Positions 5,858 through 20,159 of a stretch of 32,484 nucleotides of DNA are shown here, one piece after another. The notes under the pieces were generated by a model. It was not told the DNA's origin, did no database searches, and saw only the letters and a program-made list of their open reading frames with translations. The translations under genes and the position numbers were made by a program. Every line of letters begins with the position of its first letter. Within the stretch, counting starts at the first letter, position 1. The stretch covers positions 1 to 32,484 of the forward strand of contig JAUQQL010000022.1 of assembly GCA_030578315.1 (NCBI GenBank), written 5' to 3'. Source of the DNA: Thermodesulfobacteriota bacterium (lineage in GTDB: Bacteria; Desulfobacterota; Thermodesulfobacteria; Thermodesulfobacteriales; Thermodesulfobacteriaceae).

Positions 5858-5930
5858 TCCCCGGTAGCTCAATAGGCAGAGCGGTGGGCTGTTAACCCAT
5901 AGGCTGCAGGTTCGAGTCCTGCCCGGGGAG
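5858..5930 (+). tRNA. tRNA-Asn (anticodon GTT)
   Basis: This is a 73-nt cloverleaf. The acceptor TCCCCGG pairs with CCGGGGA and the discriminator is G. The D stem is GCTC/GAGC. The anticodon stem GTGGG/CCCAT holds loop CTGTTAA with anticodon GTT at 5891-5893. The T arm is GCAGG-TTCGAGT-CCTGC. The 3' CCA is not encoded: the sequence continues CTTTG after the discriminator. End maturation therefore needs a CCA-adding activity, and a candidate enzyme is encoded at 14542-15999. A T8 run at about 5953-5960 follows with no hairpin other than the tRNA itself. Confidence 0.96.
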
Positions 5931-6066
5931 CTTTGTTTTTAATTTAATATAAGTTTTTTTTCTTTTCAGAAATTTTTTAAAAATTACTCAAAGTTTATAA
6001 ATTCGTGAAAATTTATCTAAAAACAATAAAAATTTCTAATAAATTCTAGTAAAGAGGTTTAAAAGT

Positions 6067-7392
6067 ATGGAAGAATTATCTGTTCGTTCTACTTTAGAAG
6101 TAGAATCTGAAAGTCTTATTAAAGAACTTAAATCACCTATTTATCTTTCTGAGCTTAGAAGAAAAAGCCTTACCGAACTTTATAAAATAGGTGAAGTTTT
6201 GGGAATAGAAAATATTTATAACTTTTACAAAAAATCTGAAATTATATATCAAATTGTGAGCAACTTTCTTTCTAAAGGAGTGGAAGTAATAGCAGAAGGT
6301 GTTTTAGATGTTCTTCAAGAGGGTTTTGGATTTTTAAGATTTAACGATTACAATTATCTTCCAAGCTCAGAAGATATTTATGTGTCTCCTCCTCAAATTA
6401 GAAAGTTTGGACTTAAAACAGGAGATACTATTCTTGGATATATTCGCCAACCCAAAGAAGGAGAAAAATACTTTGCCTTAGCAAAAATTGAAAAAGTAAA
6501 TTATATTTCTCCTGAAATTGTTAGAACAAGAACTCCTTTTGACCATTTAACTCCTATTCATCCAAATAAATGGCTTCGTTTAGAAACCACAAGTGATAAT
6601 TTTTCTACTCGCATTATTGACCTCTTTGTTCCTATAGGAAAAGGACAAAGAGGACTTATTGTAGCACCTCCTAGAACTGGCAAAACTATGCTTTTACAGA
6701 ACATTGCTAACGGAATTGTAAGAAATTATCCAGATATTCATCTTATGATACTTCTAGTAGATGAAAGGCCTGAAGAAGTAACTGAAATGCAGAGAACTGT
6801 TCCACGAGCTGAAATAATCAGTTCTACTTTCGATGAACCACCTCAAAAACACACTCAAGTAGCTGAAATTGTTATTGAGAAAGCAAAAAGGTTGGTAGAA
6901 TGTAAGTACGATGTAGTAATTTTATTAGATAGTTTAACTCGTTTAACCCGAGCTTACAATCTTGTAGTTCCTTCAAGCGGTAAACTACTTTCTGGAGGAA
7001 TTGATGCTAATGCCCTTCATAAGCCTAAAAGATTTTTTGGAGCAGCTAGAAATATAGAAGAAGGGGGAAGTCTTACTATTATAGCTACATGTCTTATTGA
7101 CACTGGAAGCAGAATGGATGAAGTTATTTTTGAAGAGTTTAAAGGAACAGGAAATTTAGAAATTGTTTTAGACAGAAGATTAGCAGATAGAAGAATATGG
7201 CCTGCTATTGATATCCACTTAAGTGGAACTCGAAAAGAAGAACTTCTCCTACCTACTGATATACTTCATAGGGTTTGGCTTTTAAGAAAAGTACTTGCTC
7301 CTTTAAATCCTGTAGAATGTATGGAATTTCTGTTAGAAAAAATGAAAGATACTAAAAATAATGAAGAATTTTTAAGTCAAATGAATCAATAA
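6067..7392 (+). CDS. rho: Transcription termination factor Rho
   Basis: 441 aa. Order: a short N-terminal tail, a Rho_N helical domain (about 26-70; [20 protein letters not shown]), the cold-shock-like RNA-binding domain (about 73-145; GFGFLRF and [13 protein letters not shown]), then the hexameric RecA-type ATPase. Walker A is APPRTGKT (200-207). The R/Q-loop region ([17 protein letters not shown]) and the [31 protein letters not shown] block are intact. There is no large insertion in the RNA-binding domain. AGAGGT lies about eight bases upstream of the ATG. The 136-nt gap after tRNA-Asn contains TATAAA at 5996-6001, but no good -35. A 10-bp hairpin follows the stop. Confidence 0.98.
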
Positions 7393-7410: not shown

Positions 7411-7435
7411 AAGAGCCCCTCTTAAAGGGGCTCTT
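7411..7435. terminator. Bidirectional intrinsic terminator hairpin between rho and the cytochrome gene
   Basis: AAGAGCCCCT (7411-7420) pairs perfectly with AGGGGCTCTT (7426-7435) around a 5-nt loop: ten base pairs with a GC core in an AT-rich gap between converging genes. The T tracts are short and interrupted on both sides (CAAATTTTATT on +), so efficiency is uncertain. The position, 18 bp after the rho stop and 26 bp past the cytochrome stop, supports the call. Confidence 0.75.
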
Positions 7436-7460: not shown

Positions 7461-8765
7461 TTAATAAGGTTCTTTTAAAGAAAAAGTTATCTTTTTACTT
7501 TCTTTAACAAATAATTGAGAGTATTCAGGATTAGGTTCTCCAAAGGGATGATACCACAGTTCGGCTTCCACTATAAATTCCTGTATTTCTGGCTTACCAT
7601 CTTTAGCAGGTACAAAAATTCTGTATTCTTCTTTCTTTTCTTCTAAAGGATGAAAAGCCCAATCTACAAGGATTCCGGACTTTTCATACGGACCTCTTCC
7701 CATCCTGTCTCCTCTGCCAAGCTGTTGAGGAACAGGCATATAAACTTTACTATCTTTAAAAATTACTTTACCATCAAGAGTTTTAACGGTCACATCCAGG
7801 ACCATCCTGTTAGGAGTAGGTCAACCATCAGGTATAGCATGACCTGTTTTATTTTTAATCTCTATTTGAGTAAAAATTAAAGGTTTAATAACTCTTCCGT
7901 CTCTCCAAAACATAGGCCTAGCATCAAAGTGAAAATCTATAGCCATTTTTTGCATAATCGGATTTTTATAAGCTTGTAAGTTATGTCCTAATTTACTTTC
8001 TCTCATGTGACAGTCTTGACAAGTTTTAGCTCCACCCTTAGCAGCATAAGCCCAAAGATAATAGCCATAAAGTGTAGCACATTGGGATGGTTCATCTAAC
8101 TCAAAATTAGGACCAAGCCCGTGACACTGACCACAGAAAATAGATTCTTTCATCGTTGCCACTTCTTTCATCTTAGGAAACTTGTCAAAAGGATGAGACC
8201 CAGTTTTTGAGCCATATACTGTATCTTTTTGAGGATACCCGTCAACCCACTTATGAATAATAGCATTTCTTTGATGGCAAATCAAACAATTTATATTAAG
8301 AGTTTTGAGTTTCTCTGCTGCTTGTTGTGAAATTTCTTCATCTCCTTCCATAAAATCAATCACTAATTTCATTATTTCTTGAGCTACAGTATCTTCAGCC
8401 TCCTCAAGCTGAGGAAGATGGCACTTAGTACAAAACTTCAAATGCTCAACTTTTATGTCTTTTACATCCTTTACCCCGGAATAAGGAAATCCCTTAAGAC
8501 CAATTTTATAAGAAGTATAAAAAGTAGCTGCTGTCCGTCCACCTGTTCCAAAAATAGAATAAGCATGTACACTTTTTTTCCATTCTTCAGCAATATCTGC
8601 ATGACAAGTTTCACATTCACTTGAATCATACATAGCTATCAATTCATTTATAGTCTTAGCTTTTTTCAATACTTTTTTAGATGATACCTTTTGACCCGAA
8701 GCACTCCAAATTATCAAAGGAACTAACAAAAATAAAAAAAACAAAATTAAAAATTTCCAACGCAT
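7461..8765 (-). CDS. Exported pentahaem c-type cytochrome, putative selenoprotein (in-frame TGA = Sec315)
   Basis: 434 aa if TGA at 7821-7823 is read as selenocysteine. Start: ATG 8765, five bases after AGGAGGT; the GTG at 8771 lies within that ribosome site and is rejected. Residues 1 to about 24 are a signal peptide (RWK then a long hydrophobic run). Five CxxCH haem sites stand at 51-55, 112-116, 160-164, 211-215 and 249-253. The first context (CETCHADIAEEWKKSVHA) resembles the cytochrome c554 superfamily. A haem-free C-terminal beta-rich region begins near 290 and contains TGHAIPDG, then the TGA, then PTPNRMVLDVTV. The frame continues unchanged for 120 codons. The internal ATG (7805) has no ribosome site. 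Likely a periplasmic or surface electron carrier or reductase; partner unknown. Alternatives are a nonsense mutation or a read error. I am confident it is one gene and fairly confident about Sec. I recall Geobacter multihaem Ext cytochromes having similar UGA problems but cannot verify it here. Confidence 0.8.
7797..7809 (-). promoter_or_regulatory. Putative bacterial SECIS hairpin downstream of in-frame UGA
   Basis: On the mRNA, CAGGA-UGG-UCCUG begins 11 nt after the UGA. It is a five-bp stem with a G-containing triloop starting 17 nt after the UGA. In E. coli fdhF the minimal SelB-binding hairpin also starts 11 nt after the UGA and carries GGU in its loop. Outer pairing of GGU before the UGA with ACC near 7786-7788 is possible. 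A competing 4-bp hairpin (UCCU/AGGA) exists, so the fold should be computed. Confidence 0.55.
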
Positions 8766-8798
8766 ATACACCTCCTATCTTAGGAATTAGATAAGTTT

Positions 8799-8903: not shown

Positions 8904-11324
8904 TTAATGCTCTAAAGTTTTAAATTTTTCATTGATTTTGTTTTCTAGGTCTATTAATTGCCACACATCTAAAACAGGAGCTTCTTTAAATAAAGAGTTC
9001 GGGTCTTCTAACAGTAAGGCGATCTTAAGAACTTCATCCATATTTTCTACTAAAACTATTTCTAAACTTCTTAAAATCTTAGGATTTATCTCTTTCAAAT
9101 CTTTTTCGTTTTCTTTAGGAATAATTACAGTTTGAATACCTCCTCTTATAGCAGCCAATAACTTTTCTTTTAATCCTCCTATGGGAAGTACTCTCCCTCT
9201 AAGGGTTATTTCTCCTGTCATAGCTACAGTGTTTTTTACAGGAATTTTAAGTAAAGCAGAAATTATGGCAGTTGCAATAGTGATACCTGCGCTCGGTCCA
9301 TCTTTAGGAATAGCTCCTTCAGGCACATGTACATGAATGTCTACCTTTCTATAAAAGTCCAACGGTAGTCCTAACTGTAAAGCTCTAGACCTTACATAAC
9401 TCATAGCTGCCTGGACAGATTCTTGCATAACCTCTCCAAGTTTGCCAGTAATTTGAAGATTTCCTTTACCCGGCATAATAACTGCTTCAATTTGAAGAAG
9501 TGCTCCACCAGTTTCGGTCCAAGCAAGCCCTGTAGCAATTCCTACTTGTGGTTTTTCTTCAGCAACCCCATATCTGTATCTTGGAACACCCAACAAAGAT
9601 TCCAATTTAGAAATGGTAATTTTAAAAGGTTTAAATCTTTCTACATCTTTAGCAACTTCTTTAGCAATTTTTCTACAAATAGTAGCTATTTCTCTTTCTA
9701 AATTTCTTACACCAGCTTCTTTAGTGTATCTTCTAATAATTTCTAAAATTAATTTATCATTAAGAGGGACCCACTCTGGTTTAAGTCCGTGAGCTTCAAG
9801 CTGTCTGGGAAGTAAGTAATGTTTAGCAATTTCTAACTTTTCTTCCTCAGTATAACCGGGTAGCTCAATAATTTCCATTCTATCAAGAAGAGCAGGAGGT
9901 ATAGTGTATAAAGTATTAGCTGTAGTAATAAAAAGAACTTGTGATAAATCGTATCCTACTTCTAAGTAATGATCTTGAAAAGAATGATTTTGTTCTGGGT
10001 CTAAGACTTCTAATAAGGCAGCAGCCGGATCTCCTCTAAAGTCCATACCTATCTTATCTACCTCATCTAAACAGAATACAGGGTTAATAGTACCTGCTCT
10101 TCTCATTCCCTGTATAATTTTACCTGGAAGAGCTCCTACATAAGTTCTTCTATGACCTCTTATTTCAGCTTCATCTCTTACTCCACCTAAAGAAATCCTA
10201 ACAAATCTTCTCCCAATAGCCTCTGCAATAGACTTAGCTAAAGAAGTTTTTCCTACTCCTGGAGGACCGACAAAACAAAGAATTGGTCCTTTATTTTTCT
10301 TAGTCATTTTCTGAACTGCTAAATGTTCTATAATTCTTTGCTTAGGCTTTTCAAGTCCATAATGTTTTTCATTAAGTAACTTTTCTACCTTAGCTATATC
10401 TATATTGTCTGTAGTTTTTTCATACCAAGGAAGACTAAGTAACCAATCAATGTAGTTTCTAACAACGGTTGCCTCTGCAGACATTGGTGACATAAGAGAT
10501 AATTTTTTAAATTCTCTCCGAACAATTGCTGCTACTTCCTTAGGCATTTTTTTCTTCTTTATTCTCTTTTCCAACTCTGCTAAATCACTTCTTCCATCTT
10601 CTCTTTCACCTAATTCCTTTTGAATAGCTTTCATCTGTTCGTGAAGATAATAATCTCTCTGGGTTTTTTCCATTTGCTTTTTAACTCTTTCTCGAATCCT
10701 AGCTTCAGCTTTAATAATTTCAATTTCTCCTCTCAAAAAATTCAATAAAAACTCCAAACGCTTTTTAGCACTTGTAGTTTCAAGAAGTTTTTGCTTTTGT
10801 TCTAACTTCAAATTTAGTATAGCTGCTACTCGATCAGAAAACTCTGCAGGATCCTCAATCTCTAAAAGATTTTGAACCACCTCTGGATTAACTTTTTTAT
10901 TATACTGGATATACTCTTCCAAAGATTCCTTACATAATTTCAATAAAGCTTTAGTCTCTACATCTGCTTCTACAACTTCTGTTTTAACTTCTACTTCCAC
11001 TAAAAAATATTCAGGATTATTAAAATATCTAACCATTTTAGCTCTACTTACTCCCTCTACTAGAACTTTCAGAGTTCCATCAGGTAGTCTTAAAAGTTGA
11101 ATAATCTTGCAAATAGTTCCTACTTTATATACATCTTCCTCAGACGGATTATCTATTTTAGCATCTTTTTGAGCAGAAAGAAAAATAAATTTATCTCCAG
11201 AATATGCCTTTTCAACAGAAAAAATACTTTTACTTCTGCCAATAAAAAGAGGAACAGCTGTATTGGGAAAAACTACAATCTCTCTTAAAGGCAAAAGAGG
11301 TAAAATTTTAAGTTCTTCTGTCAT
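8904..11324 (-). CDS. lon: ATP-dependent protease La (Lon)
   Basis: 806 aa, full length. The N-terminal substrate-binding domain (about 8-205) is followed by a coiled-coil stretch (about 200-275). The AAA+ module has Walker A GPPGVGKT at 353-360 and Walker B (VFCLDEVDK). The C-terminal serine protease domain has the Ser-Lys dyad: S678 in DGPSAG and K719 in GGLKEK, matching E. coli S679/K722. Lon degrades unfolded and selected regulatory proteins in the cytoplasm. The gene starts 7 bp after the clpX stop, and its ribosome site (GAGGGA) lies inside the last clpX codons, so translation is probably coupled. No terminator hairpin with a T run is evident after the stop. Confidence 0.98.
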
Positions 11325-11331
11325 GATTTGT

Positions 11332-12591
11332 TTATCCCTCCCGCGCTTTTTTATTATTAAAAATTAAGATTGGTCTCTCTTTTTTCAAGACAACTTCTTC
11401 AGTTACTATACATTCCCTTACATCCTTTAAAGAGGGAATTTCATACATTACTTCTATCATAACCTCTTCTATAATAGACCTCAAAGCACGGGCTCCTGTT
11501 TTTCTTCTATTAGCTTCTTCTGCTATAGCTCTCAATGCCCCTTCAGTAAATTTAAGTTCTATTCCCTCTATCTCAAATAATTTTTGATATTGTTTAACTA
11601 TAGAATTCTTAGGTTCAACTAAAATCCTAACCAAATCCTCTACAGTGAGCTCATCTAAAGTTGCTACTACAGGAAGCCTTCCCACAAACTCGGGAATTAA
11701 TCCATATTTAATTAAATCTTCTGGTTGAACTTTGGAAAGAATCTCTCCCATGGTTAAGTCTTTTACACTTTTAACTTCTGCTCCGAAACCTATAGATCCT
11801 TTTCCTAATCTTCTTTTTATTATTTCCTCTAGTCCAACAAAGGCTCCCCCGCAAATAAATAAAATATTGGTAGTGTCCATACGAATATATTCTTGTTGAG
11901 GATGCTTTCTTCCTCCTTTGGGAGGAATATTAGCTATAGTTCCTTCTAAAATTTTTAATAGTGCCTGTTGAACCCCTTCTCCTGAAACATCTCGAGTAAT
12001 GGAAGGACTTTCACTTTTTCTTGCAATTTTGTCTATTTCATCAATATAAACTATACCTTTTTGAGCTAGTTCTAGGTCAAAGTTAGCAGCTTGTAAGAGA
12101 TATAAAAGAATATTTTCCACATCTTCTCCTACATAACCTGCCTCAGTTAAAGGGGTAGCATCTGCGATAGTAAAAGGAACTCTCAAAAACTTAGCTAAAG
12201 TTTGTGCTAAAAGGGTTTTCCCGCTTCCCGTAGGTCCAATAAGAAGAATGTTAGTTTTTTGAATTTCTACATCCTTAAACTTGCTTTTTTTTAATTTCTC
12301 GTATTCTATTCTTTTATAATGATTATATACGGCTACAGAAAGAATTTTTTTAGCTTTCTCTTGCCCTATTACATATTGATCTAAGTAAGCTTTAATTTCT
12401 GCTGGTTTAGGAATTTCAGAAAACTCTTCTTCAGAAAGATTAAGTCTCCCATATTCCTCTTCTAGTATTTCGTTACACAGCTCTACACATTCATTACAAA
12501 TGTAAGCAGAAGACCCTGCAATAAGTTTTTTTACTTCACTTTGAGTTCTTCCACAAAAAGAACACCGTGGTTCATCGTTTCTTTTCTTCAT
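11332..12591 (-). CDS. clpX: ATP-dependent Clp protease ATP-binding subunit ClpX
   Basis: 419 aa from ATG 12591, which shares one base with the clpP TGA (TGATG). A GTG at 12594 is also in frame but sits closer to the AGGGTGG ribosome site. The N-terminal zinc-binding domain has Cys10, 13, 32 and 35. The AAA+ core has Walker A GPTGSGKT at 119-126, Walker B with IDEIDKIA, and sensor regions. The pore-loop GYVGED motif is present ([11 protein letters not shown]). ClpX unfolds substrates and feeds them into the ClpP barrel encoded just upstream. Confidence 0.98.
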
Positions 12592-13187
12592 CACTTACCA
12601 CCCTCTCTTTTGATTAAAATTTTATCTATTAATCCGTATTCTTGAGCTTCTTTAGCAGACATATAAAAATCCCTCTCTGTATCCTGTCTAATTTTTTCCT
12701 TAGGTTGACCCGTGTGTTTAGCCAAAATCTCGTTTAGAACCTCTCTCAGTCTTAAAATCTCCTTAGCTTGTATTTCTACTTCAGTAGCCTGTCCCTGAAA
12801 GGCTCCTATAGGTTGATGAAGCATTATTCTTGAATTTGCAAGAGCATATCTTTTACCAGGAGTCCCTGCAGCAAGAAGTACCGCAGCCATACTCGCTGCC
12901 TGCCCTACACATATAGTACAAATGTCCGGTTTAATATACTGCATAGTATCATAAATAGCTAAACCAGCTGTTACCAATCCTCCAGGAGAATTAATATAAA
13001 GCATTATGTCCTTGTCAGGGTCTTCAGCCTCTAAAAAAAGAAGTTGAGCTATAACTAAATTAGCTACATACTCGTCTATGGTCGTTCCTAAAAATATAAT
13101 TCTTTCTTTTAAAAGCCGTGAATAAATATCAAAAGCTCTTTCTCCTCGCCCTGTTTGTTCTATTACTATAGGTACATAATAGCCCAC
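12591..13187 (-). CDS. clpP: ATP-dependent Clp protease proteolytic subunit ClpP
   Basis: 198 aa with a GTG start at 13187. This start gives the family N-terminus ([24 protein letters not shown]) and lies 1 bp after the tig stop. GGGGAG about seven bases upstream serves as ribosome site. The frame is open to an ATG at 13223 inside tig, but that would add 12 unconserved residues. The catalytic triad is visible: Ser99 in GQAASMAA, His124 in MLHQP and Asp173 in ERDFYMSA. It forms the double-heptamer proteolytic chamber for ClpX. Length matches the Gram-positive type (no long propeptide). Confidence 0.96.
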
Positions 13188-13188
13188 C

Positions 13189-14481
13189 TTAACTCTCCCC
13201 TCCTTTATAAATAGGCTTAGCATTTTCCATCAAAAAACGTAAAGTTTTTTCCGCCAACTTCTTAGGTAAGATATTAAAATAAACAATATTTCTAGCTTCA
13301 TTTAACGAAATTTTAAGCCCTTCAGAAATCATCTTTATTTCCTTTTCTATTTCTTCTTGAGGAATTTCAATTCTTTCAACCTCAGCAATTCTTTCTAAAA
13401 GAAGCTCTTCTTTTGCTTGTCTTTCCGCTACAGGCCAAAGCCTTTCCTTAAGTTTTTCTATAGGAATATTTAACTTTTCAAAACTAAATCCATCTTTCTC
13501 TAAAGTCTCTTTAACCCTATTTACTAATTGATGAAACTTCAACTCTACTAATCTATTAGGTACTTTAATTTCAACTTTTTCTAAAATCTTTCCTAAAAGT
13601 CTTTCTTTAAAAGCACTTTCTACTTTAATTTTTTTATTTTCCATTAATCTAGTTTTTATTCTGTTTCTTAAATCTTCCACACTCTCAAATCCCAAATTTA
13701 AACTTTTCAAAAATTCGTCAGTCAGTTCCTTAATTTCTCGTCTGTAAACTTCTTTAATCTCTATTTCATACCTAACTTTTTTTCCCGCAAGTAAAGGATT
13801 TAGACCATCTGAAGGATATTCAACTTCTACACTTAACCTTTCTCCCTTTTTTCTCCCCATAAGTTCTTTTTCTACTTTGTCGTTAAATTCTCCAGTACCT
13901 ATGTCTATAAATAAAGCTTCGGCTGAATGCCCAGGAATGGGATTTTCTCCTTCAAAGGCTTCAAATTTTATCACCCCTACATACCTTTCTTGAATAGGTT
14001 CCTCCTCCCCTACCTCTTTAAGTTCTGAAAAAGAATAAACAAATTCTTTTAAAAGTTTTTCTACTTCTTCATCTCTTACTTCCTCACTTTCTTTTTCTAC
14101 TTCTATTCCTAAGTAATCCTCTCTTTTAAGCTCAATAACGGGTCTTATCTCCACCAAAACCGAATAATTAAAAGATTCACCTTCCTTAAGTTCTCCATAC
14201 TCTTCAAGCTTAGGAGTTAAAAGTGGCTCAAGTTGAATATCTTTAATAACTTTAGGTAAAGTTCTTTCAATAATTCTCTCTATACTTCTCTCTTCAATTT
14301 CCTCTTTAAAAAGCTTCTTAATCAAATACACAGGAGCTTTACCTTCTCTAAAACCTTTTATTTTGGTTCTTTTTTTAAAGTCCTTAGTAACTTCTTCTAA
14401 AACCTTGTGTACCTCCTCATAAGGAACCTCAATTTTTAATAACTTTTCAACTTCGCTAAGGTCTTGAACCTCTACCCTCAT
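13189..14481 (-). CDS. tig: Trigger factor (ribosome-associated chaperone)
   Basis: 430 aa, full three-domain length. The N-terminal ribosome-binding domain carries the signature GFREGKAP (about residues 43-50), which contacts L23 (rplW) at the tunnel exit. A peptidyl-prolyl isomerase domain occupies about 150-245 ([11 protein letters not shown] to [10 protein letters not shown]). The rest is the alpha-helical substrate cradle. AGGGAG lies eight bases upstream of the ATG. The 60-bp gap after the preceding gene shows no good promoter. The tig-clpP-clpX-lon order is conserved widely and couples nascent-chain folding to degradation. Confidence 0.97.
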
Positions 14482-14541: not shown

Positions 14542-15999
14542 TCAAACTTTTAAAAATTCTTTATACTTCTCTTTTATATACTTCAAAATTTCTTCCTTAG
14601 TAACTAACTTCCTTTCCATTTGAATAACTTCAACCTCTTGCAAAATTTCTTTAAAAATAGGACCCGGTTTAAAGCCTAAAGCTATCAAATCGTCTCCTGT
14701 AACCAATCTTTTTTTTACAATTTCTTTTTCAAAATCTTTTTTAAATAAAAATAATTCTCTAAAAAAAGTTTTCAAACGTTCTTCGTAATCCTTTTCTTTA
14801 TCAGGACCTTTAGAAGCTAAAGAATCAGCCATACATACTATAAACAATTCTTTAAGATAAGGAACATCCTTAATTAAATTTCTTTTAGCTCTTGTTGTGA
14901 GTCTACCTTCTTCTTTTTCATTTAATAAATGGAAAGGCCTCATGTGATTTTTAATAAGATTAGCAATTTTGTTTATAAGTGTTTTTTTTAATTTTAATAC
15001 TTCTGCCCTTCTTTTAAAAAGTTCTGCAGAAACTTTTTCGTGTCCGTAAAAAGTAATCCTATCACTTATCTTAAAAGTATAAGCTTTTCCTAAATCATGA
15101 AAAAAAGAAGCTAATTTAACAGAAATAATAAACTCTTCTTCTTCAAATTCAGAATTTTTAGAAATCTCAAGATAAGTTTCAGGACTTCTTAAAATTTCTT
15201 CTGACCACTTTAAAGTCTCTAAAAGATGTCCATAAACATCTAAATGGTGAAAAGTAGGTTGAGGAACTCCTTTACAAGGATTAAATTCAGGAAAAATTTC
15301 TTCTAAAACACCATCTTCTTCCATTAAAAGAAAAGTTTTATAAGTGCTAAAAGAAGTCAAAATATAATTAAGTTCAGTTAATATTCTTTCTGAAGCGCAA
15401 AAGTGAAGTTTTTTTCTGTGTTTTTTAAATAAGTTCCTGGTTTTTTCTTCTATTTTTCCAAAATTTTGTGCAAAGAATCTATAACCTCGTAAAATTCTTA
15501 AAGGGTCTTCAAGAAGGTTCTTTTCTCCCAGTATTCTTATTTTCTTTTCTTTTAAATCTTTTAGTCCGTTAAAAGGGTCTATTATGATAAACTTTCCCTC
15601 AAATAAACTTTTAATAGGTATAGCCATAGCATTAAAAGTAAAATCTCGAGCTCCTAAATCTTCTTCTAAACTTTTTCCTTTAAAATTAGCAAAATCAAGA
15701 AAAAAGTGACCTTTAGTAAGTCTGAAAACTCCCCACTCCCGAGCTAAGGGAACTAAGTAAAAACTTAAGTAGTGATGAGCAAAAAAAACTAGAGAACCTA
15801 CATCTTCTTTAATTATCAAATCAAGGTCGTTAATCTTTCTATTAAAAAAAAGATCTCTTACTGCACCACCTACTAAAAAAAAATCTTCTCTTTCTTTAAA
15901 CTTACGTAAAAAAGAAATTAACCTTTCTTTTTCGTAAGAAAATAGTTCAAGAAGAGTCCAAAAACGAACCCTTAAAGAAGACTCCAGCTCATAAACCAT
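14542..15999 (-). CDS. Class II tRNA nucleotidyltransferase (CCA-adding type) with C-terminal HD domain
   Basis: 485 aa from ATG 15999; a TTG at 16005 is also in frame, and neither has a clear Shine-Dalgarno sequence. The poly(A) polymerase/CCA head domain has GGAVRD (44-49), the metal-binding DLDL (58-61) and ARDFTFNAMAI. The EDPLRILRGYRF neck motif follows. A later HD phosphohydrolase-type region shows HLDVYGH and FFHDLGKA plus further histidines. It most likely repairs or adds the tRNA 3' CCA. This fits the tRNA-Asn gene at 5858, which lacks CCA. Some thermophiles split CC- and A-addition between two enzymes, and this sequence alone does not decide which version it is. It sits 36 bp after rplQ, an unusual link to the ribosomal operon. 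Confidence 0.85.
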   Translation of the reverse strand: MVYELESSLRVRFWTLLELFSYEKERLISFLRKFKEREDFFLVGGAVRDLFFNRKINDLDLIIKEDVGSLVFFAHHYLSFYLVPLAREWGVFRLTKGHFFLDFANFKGKSLEEDLGARDFTFNAMAIPIKSLFEGKFIIIDPFNGLKDLKEKKIRILGEKNLLEDPLRILRGYRFFAQNFGKIEEKTRNLFKKHRKKLHFCASERILTELNYILTSFSTYKTFLLMEEDGVLEEIFPEFNPCKGVPQPTFHHLDVYGHLLETLKWSEEILRSPETYLEISKNSEFEEEEFIISVKLASFFHDLGKAYTFKISDRITFYGHEKVSAELFKRRAEVLKLKKTLINKIANLIKNHMRPFHLLNEKEEGRLTTRAKRNLIKDVPYLKELFIVCMADSLASKGPDKEKDYEERLKTFFRELFLFKKDFEKEIVKKRLVTGDDLIALGFKPGPIFKEILQEVEVIQMERKLVTKEEILKYIKEKYKEFLKV

Positions 16000-16041
16000 G
16001 CTCAAAAAGATTCACGGTAAAGATAATTTTTTGTTAAAATT

Positions 16042-19030: not shown

Positions 19031-19144
19031 TTATCCTTGCCTCTGTTTATGCTTAGGAATTTCGCAAATCACCCTTACTACTCCTTTTCTCCTTATAATT
19101 TTGCATTTTCTACACCTCTTTTTAACAGAAGGGCTTACTTTCAT
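19031..19144 (-). CDS. rpmJ: 50S ribosomal protein L36 (zinc form)
   Basis: 37 aa, found by translating the gap between infA and rpsM. It begins [14 protein letters not shown] and ends PKHKQRQG. Cys11, Cys14, Cys27 and His32 supply the CCCH zinc site. The ATG overlaps the infA TGA (ATGA), so translation is coupled, and rpsM follows 13 bp after its stop. It is too short for most ORF cut-offs and easily missed, but the infA-rpmJ-rpsM order is conserved. Confidence 0.98.
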
Positions 19145-19395
19145 TTCTTTTCGCCTCCTTTTTCATACTCTTTTTTAGAACCTCTAAAAACAATTCTTCC
19201 TCTGGTTAAATCATAAGGAGACAACTCTACCGTTACCGTATCTCCTAACAAAATTCTAATATAATACATCCTCATCTTTCCTGAAATATGAGCTAAAATC
19301 TTATTCCCGGTTTCTAATTCAACTCTAAACATAGCATTAGGTAAAACTTCCACTACTTTTCCTTCCAATAAAATTACATCTTCCTTTTTAGCCAT
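19141..19395 (-). CDS. infA: Translation initiation factor IF-1
   Basis: 84 aa from ATG 19395 ([14 protein letters not shown]). A TTG at 19404 would add three residues. It is a single OB-fold (S1-like) protein with typical [18 protein letters not shown] and LTRGRIV boxes. It occupies the 30S A site during initiation. A 12-residue Lys/Glu/Gly tail extends beyond the usual 72-residue end. The Shine-Dalgarno sequence is weak (GAGAG close to the ATG), and the ATG lies 5 bp after the map stop, so reinitiation is likely. Confidence 0.96.
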
Positions 19396-19400
19396 AACTC

Positions 19401-20159
19401 TCAAACCACAGACAAAATTTCTGGACCGTTAGGTGTAATAACTATGGAGTGCTCAAAATGAGCTGATAAGCTTCTGTCCTTCGTTACAGCAGTCCAACCA
19501 TCTTCCAAAATTTGTACTTCGTAACTTCCTGCTGAAACCATAGGTTCAATAGCCAATACCATACCTACTTCCAATCTTAGACCTCTACCAGGTTTACCAT
19601 AATTGGGAACTTCTGGAGGTTCATGTAAATTTCGCCCTATCCCATGCCCAACAAAAGCTCTAATTACATTATAACCAAATTTCTCTACATAACTTTGAAT
19701 GGCAAAAGATATATCCCCAATCTTGTTTCCTAGACGAGCTTTTTCAATTCCTTTATATAAAGCTTCTTCCGTAACCTTTAACAATTTATTAGCCTCTTCA
19801 GAAATTTTTCCTACTCCTACAGTTAAAGCTGCATCTCCTACATAACCTTCGTAAATCACTCCAAAGTCAAAACTTACAATGTCTCCTTCATTCAAAATTC
19901 TATCTTTCCTAGGCATTCCATGAACTATCTCCTCATTTAAAGAAACACAAAGTGCATAAGGATAACCTCTATAACCTTTAAAAGCCGGTTTAACTTTTTT
20001 CTTTTCACAAAGCTTTAAAGCTATCTCTTCAAACTCATAAGTACTCATGCCAGGTTTTACAGCTTCTTTTAAATATAAAAGAATTTCCATTACTATTTTA
20101 TTAGCTTTTCTTAAAATTTCTATCTCCCAAGGACTTTTTAATATAGGCTTAGCTTTCAA
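19401..20159 (-). CDS. map: Methionine aminopeptidase, type I
   Basis: 252 aa from a TTG start 12 bp after adk; no ATG or GTG is available upstream in frame. It removes N-terminal Met from nascent proteins using two metal ions. The ligands can be read: Asp in SFDFGV, Asp in GDAALT, His in FVGHGIG, Glu in AIEPM and Glu in HFEHSIVI. There is no N-terminal zinc finger. Placement between adk and infA is the common order in many phyla. It joins secY, adk and infA in the ribosomal transcript. Confidence 0.97.

Follow-up and report, generated by a model that had tools for sequence, protein, structure and literature searches.

A lone extKL gene in Thermodesulfobacteriaceae, split in annotation by an in-frame UGA, very probably encodes one pentahaem cytochrome selenoprotein

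The window, which is the whole stretch of 32,484 nucleotides analyzed here (contig JAUQQL010000022.1 of assembly GCA_030578315.1), carries extKL as a lone gene, with lon upstream of it and rho facing it in convergent orientation (Table 1). Translation of the minus strand showed a single frame of 435 codons from ATG to TAA, in which the sole internal stop was a TGA at 7823-7821. This codon is residue 315 and lies within the stretch TGHAIPDG-U-PTPNRM, and the protein contains five CXXCH motifs upstream of it. An earlier note on this DNA had read two minus-strand frames as one continuous frame across the TGA, and the translation agreed; the long open stretch that the note described after the TGA was also found, but its length was 119 sense codons and not 120. 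At the 33.8% G+C of the window, the chance of 119 stop-free codons was about 1e-4 under a simple base-composition model. The start ATG at 8765 has an AGGAGG at good spacing. For the downstream ATG at 7805, which falls inside the SECIS-like hairpin described below, no spaced Shine-Dalgarno site was seen by inspection of the window sequence, in keeping with the note's statement that the second frame has no ribosome site of its own. The note had also stated that TGA is a normal stop elsewhere in the window, and this was borne out by five other ORFs that end in TGA, namely mutL (1181-2848), clpP (12591-13223), cca (14542-16005), infA (19141-19404), and map (19401-20159), named as in that note. By inspection, the N-terminus of the extKL protein is hydrophobic and resembles a signal sequence. 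The only RNA gene detected in the window by ARAGORN and Rfam (gathering threshold) was a tRNA-Asn (GTT) at 5858-5931.

Table 1. Features of the extKL locus, in window coordinates
Feature	Position	Strand	Basis
rho, convergent neighbour	6067..7392	+	context
Terminator-like hairpin between convergent rho and extKL	7411..7435		consensus scan only
extKL (probable selenoprotein, a c-type cytochrome with five haems; 434 residues counting UGA as Sec; TAA stop)	7461..8765	-	translation, NF040886, relatives, PDB alignment
SECIS-like hairpin (stem of 7 bp, loop of 8 nt; base of stem 14 nt past the UGA)	7785..7806	-	pair count, codon resampling
In-frame UGA, probable Sec315	7821..7823	-	translation, relatives, PDB alignment
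Haem motif 5, CQDCH, residues 249-253	8007..8021	-	translation, alignment
Haem motif 4, CGQCH, residues 211-215	8121..8135	-	translation, alignment
Haem motif 3, CLICH, residues 160-164	8274..8288	-	translation, alignment
Haem motif 2, CTKCH, residues 112-116	8418..8432	-	translation, alignment
Haem motif 1, CETCH, residues 51-55	8601..8615	-	translation, alignment
AGGAGG ribosome-binding site for ATG at 8765	8771..8776	-	sequence inspection
lon, upstream neighbour	8904..11324	-	context

The read-through protein was compared with curated families and with solved structures. It matched the NCBIfam model NF040886, "multiheme c-type cytochrome (seleno)protein ExtKL", with 547.6 bits (cut-off 250). 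The halves taken alone scored 422.3 bits (N-terminal) and 99.8 bits (C-terminal), and their matches met at profile positions 314 and 316, so that position 315, the site of the UGA, lay between them. In the PDB, phmmer matched the protein to 9wt8, "Multiheme cytochrome c selenoprotein (MccSep)" (E 7e-143), and to its U325A mutant 9wt9 (E 4e-143); opposite Sec315, the sequence of 9wt8 has the non-standard residue X and that of 9wt9 has alanine. Given the NF040886 match and the MccSep structures, this kind of protein is known, curated, and structurally solved, and NF040886 is among the selenoprotein families listed in the relevant part of PMC13188914. What is new here is only one more member of an already catalogued family, together with its lone genomic setting. 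The AlphaFold model, made with Cys for Sec and without haem, had a pLDDT of 91.3 and a pTM of 0.85 over the whole length, and its C-terminal part was rich in strands. Foldseek was run against a PDB copy with releases through 8 April 2026, and the nearest solved fold among the matches listed was the penta-haem cytochrome c552 5ze8 (TMq 0.57, E 1.5e-14, 18% identity); 9wt8 was absent from the best 50 matches listed. Our literature search found no paper on MccSep, no paper joining selenoprotein, multiheme cytochrome c and selenite, and, for selenoproteins in Thermodesulfobacterium, only one unrelated review.

The selenocysteine machinery was investigated in the genome from which the window comes, a check that the earlier note had proposed, and selA, selB, selD, and a tRNA-Sec gene were all present. 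The scores were 615 bits for selA (cut-off 268), 382 bits for selB (cut-off 242), 337 bits for selD (cut-off 125), and 86 bits for the tRNA-Sec with anticodon TCA (gathering threshold 47). The Rfam tRNA-Sec family also matches ordinary tRNAs, with 19 matches in this genome and matches in 14 of 14 control genomes; therefore, the assignment rests on the anticodon reported by ARAGORN, which called tRNA-SeC (tca) at C52:5309 and identified the second Rfam hit above the cut-off as a tRNA-Ser. Two further in-frame TGA codons were found in this genome, one in SelD (RAAGUASKLP) and one in the formate dehydrogenase alpha subunit (ARIUHSPTVAAL), at loci L017 and L113. We take both to be classical Sec positions, and these two proteins are probably selenoproteins as well. 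Across the genus, selA exceeded the cut-off in 13 of 14 genomes, and the one exception is 70% complete.

Next, we analyzed the residue at the site in relatives. ExtKL was over the cut-off in 40 of 395 genomes of the phylum and in 15 of 30 genomes of the family, a set that overlaps the phylum set; named records among the relatives were Thermodesulfobacteriaceae and Caldimicrobium MAGs. In the 60 sequences that span the site, counting the window, the residue was TGA in 54, Cys in 4, Ile in 1, and Val in 1, so that 58 in all have Sec or Cys; this count omits L039_y, a fragment with no residue there, and L068, a broken copy, and includes L066 once. The relatives all come from the phylum of the window, and their shared ancestry means that they cannot be counted as independent events. 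The earlier note had proposed aligning relatives at this position, and the result fits its reading of a selenocysteine. The data from alignment A1 (56 of these sequences; L050, L062, L066, L068, L083, and L039_y were left out, and the window itself stood for its copy L001) showed that G, H, P, and D of the GHxxPD motif, and the C, C, and H columns of all five CXXCH motifs, were invariant, and that the Sec/Cys column was at least 90% conserved. The invariant His is His309, and Sec315 follows six residues after it; the earlier note had suggested that Sec315, beside this His, could be a haem ligand or an active-site residue. No stop interrupts the site in the Cys, Ile, and Val forms (L050, L051, L039, and L064), and the Ile and the Val belong to two paralogues. 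At L051 (2938-5641) the Ile form adjoins a Cys form, and at L039 the Val form is next to a second copy, which the end of the contig truncates. In L066, from the same family as the window, a TAA interrupts a Cys-type paralogue between the first and second haem motifs, suggesting a broken copy or an error of assembly. A second in-frame TGA was seen at residue 76 of the trimmed copy in L093; it is not conserved, the nearest relatives L049 and L083 having Gly there, and it is probably an error or a mark of a decaying copy. The natural Cys, Ile, and Val forms offer material for testing the role of Sec beside the haem chain.

The RNA downstream of the UGA was examined using alignment A2, which consists of the 54 TGA rows. 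The Sec genes share the sequence GTGGTCCTGGA-GTGACCGC after the TGA. Pairing in the stem was found in 88.6% of 378 cells, and it fell to 18.8-65.9% when the partner was slid by 1-3 columns. Double changes occurred in 14 cells, against 4.3 in shuffles (0 of 500 shuffles reached 14), and in 4 of the 7 stem pairs, against 2.0 in shuffles (10 of 500 reached 4), although the tool warns that related sequences can exceed the shuffles of this test. In codon resampling, in which the protein was held fixed and either the window's codon usage or uniform codons were applied to all species, the observed mean of 6.2 of 7 pairs compared with 5.22 (window usage; maximum 5.65 in 300 draws) and 4.82 (uniform). 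When only the window sequence was resampled, draws that folded as stably as the original made up 0.08% (window usage) or 0.9% (uniform), and 17% or 7%, respectively, also reached 7 pairs. The four non-Sec sequences counted, of six (all but L050 and L066), had 2, 4, 4, and 3 hairpin pairs. Fewer than 6 pairs were found in 8 of the 54 Sec sequences; when six of these deviating sequences were refolded, two used a hairpin that lies further upstream, and the register was shifted in four. When the window's own 56-nt RNA was folded without constraint, another hairpin was preferred and no unusual stability was seen (z -0.35), and RNAalifold over all 54 sequences predicted no pair; it recovered the stem only with the six deviating sequences left out or in 7 family members. 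Thus, the case for the hairpin is built on the directed pair count and the codon resampling, and the covariation supports a SECIS-like stem. The bSECIS limits stated in the relevant part of PMC13188914 are a loop of 3-9 nt, a distance of 16-37 nt from the UGA, a G in the first two loop positions, and an MFE of -7.5 or below. The loop position of the hairpin fits these limits, the G is present only if an extra inner C-G pair is formed (loop UGGAU), and the 22-nt hairpin piece, at -7.4 kcal/mol, is just short of the energy limit. This conserved SECIS-like hairpin provides a further means of testing the role of Sec in ExtKL.

These data agree with the earlier note's proposal of a candidate selenocysteine cytochrome, with the curated family and solved structures, both named as selenoproteins, pointing the same way as the genome and the relatives. 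We estimate a probability of about 95% that the gene encodes ExtKL/MccSep with UGA315 read as selenocysteine. A nonsense mutation or sequencing error that splits an ordinary cytochrome is the least credible alternative. It would agree with the lack of ExtKL above the cut-off in 11 of 14 genomes of the genus, which makes ExtKL dispensable there, but the TGA recurs at the same codon in 54 of the 60 sequences, the window copy has no other lesion, the hairpin carries double changes, and the genome has the Sec machinery. Genuine termination at the UGA, with ExtK and ExtL as two separate functional proteins, is hardly more plausible. The annotation treats them as two genes in Geobacter, according to the part of PMC6148476 concerned with them, and one small pentahaem cytochrome (sPHC) of a cable bacterium has a two-gene structure in the account given in PMC11976967. 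However, the Cys, Ile, and Val forms are uninterrupted, the second part has no spaced ribosome site that we could see, and the solved MccSep chain covers both parts. The relatives led us to reject the pseudogene, sequencing-error, and two-protein readings alike. The gene split by gene callers is thus very probably one selenoprotein, and what is known of the genetic code is unchanged by this case.

The position of the gene was examined in a set of fetched loci, which covers part of the family copies over the cut-off. Four of these loci, L078, L079, L030, and L080, belong to two other genera of the family and had the order lon-extKL-rho, and in L081, from the same genus as the window, lon-extKL was followed by the contig end. 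ExtKL was over the cut-off in 3 of the 14 genomes of the genus. Ten loci around rho were fetched from genomes of the genus that have no ExtKL: lon and rho lay tail to tail within about 65 bases in 5 of them, lon was about 1.07 kb from rho with no ExtKL match between them in one (L106), and no lon was present in the fetched flank in 4. The simplest reading is descent of ExtKL within the family and loss in most of the genus, and the data place ExtKL of Thermodesulfobacteriaceae in a lone lon-extKL-rho locus.

We propose that SelB and tRNA-Sec would decode UGA315 as selenocysteine, steered by the hairpin just downstream, and that ExtKL would be exported and act outside the inner membrane. Its five haems may pass electrons to or from Sec315, which would be a redox-active residue, most likely in the reduction of an oxyanion, for example selenite, or in a related terminal electron-transfer step. 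In bacteria, Sec is retained chiefly at catalytic redox sites, and this and the Sec or Cys found in 58 of the 60 sequences lead us to favour, with some reserve, a catalytic Sec315. The main rival is that ExtKL is only an electron relay in which Sec tunes stability or the haem environment without catalysis; the replacement of Sec by Ile and Val in two paralogues and the Ala opposite it in c552, the nearest solved non-Sec homologue, speak for such a relay, which we nevertheless regard as improbable. We consider a terminal reduction that depends on Sec and draws its electrons from the haem chain the most likely function. Selenite itself is a putative substrate, and a doubtful one. In the sections of PMC5877670 that treat ExtKL, it is a 5-haem protein with a putative Sec and a candidate for selenite reduction, Geobacter without the neighbouring porin ExtI is impaired in selenite/tellurite reduction, and higher ExtKL abundance with Fe(III) is cited. 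Its location differs between sources, being periplasmic in the relevant part of PMC6148476 and in the outer and cytoplasmic membranes in a proteome study cited by PMC5877670. Deletion of the whole extHIJKL cluster lowered Fe(III) citrate reduction to 66% of wild type (PMC6148476, same part), and an ExtKL homologue, listed among 7-8-haem cytochromes, is described as highly expressed in syntrophic sulfate reducers in a passage of PMC10553843. Porin_O_P gave one weak match in the window's genome (24.2 bits against a cut-off of 20.9), and a NapC-type domain also gave one match (28.7 bits against 24.1); both lie on other contigs. As a tentative suggestion, ExtKL of Thermodesulfobacteriaceae might work alone, with no outer-membrane conduit next to it, as a haem reductase that depends on Sec, the Sec facing an open-site haem. 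If this were true, the members of the genus that have ExtKL (3 of 14 genomes) would be species that encounter a certain oxyanion or some other acceptor.

Among known systems, the sPHC proteins of cable bacteria are similar by description. They are called ExtKL-like from structural models in PMC11976967 and, in its passage on them, are classed from models as potentially catalytic with a pentacoordinated haem; the main text of that source has no occurrence of the word seleno-. The penta-haem cytochrome c552 of Thermochromatium tepidum (5ze8) resembles the window protein in fold, and its PHAMPTG aligns with GHAIPDG, but it has Ala at the Sec position. MccSep (9wt8, 9wta, and 9wtb; Ala-bearing U325A forms 9wt9 and 9wtc) aligned over window residues 34-428, leaving residues 1-33 and 429-434 outside the alignment, with the Sec column matched within GHSIPDG-x-PTPNR. 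The split gene extK/extL of Geobacter was described in 2018 (PMC5877670 and PMC6148476, in their parts on this gene), with a TGA for a predicted Sec separating ExtK from ExtL (PMC6148476). The window protein is like ExtKL of Geobacter sulfurreducens (GSU2937-GSU2936) in its five haems and in the UGA/Sec that splits the annotated gene, as given in the same parts of these two sources. However, the ext gene-cluster context, which is typical of Geobacter and outside the family model, is absent at the window locus: in Geobacter, ExtKL lies within extHIJKLMNOPQS with the porin ExtI and the rhodanese-like ExtH (PMC5877670, section on the cluster), whereas here it stands alone between lon and rho.
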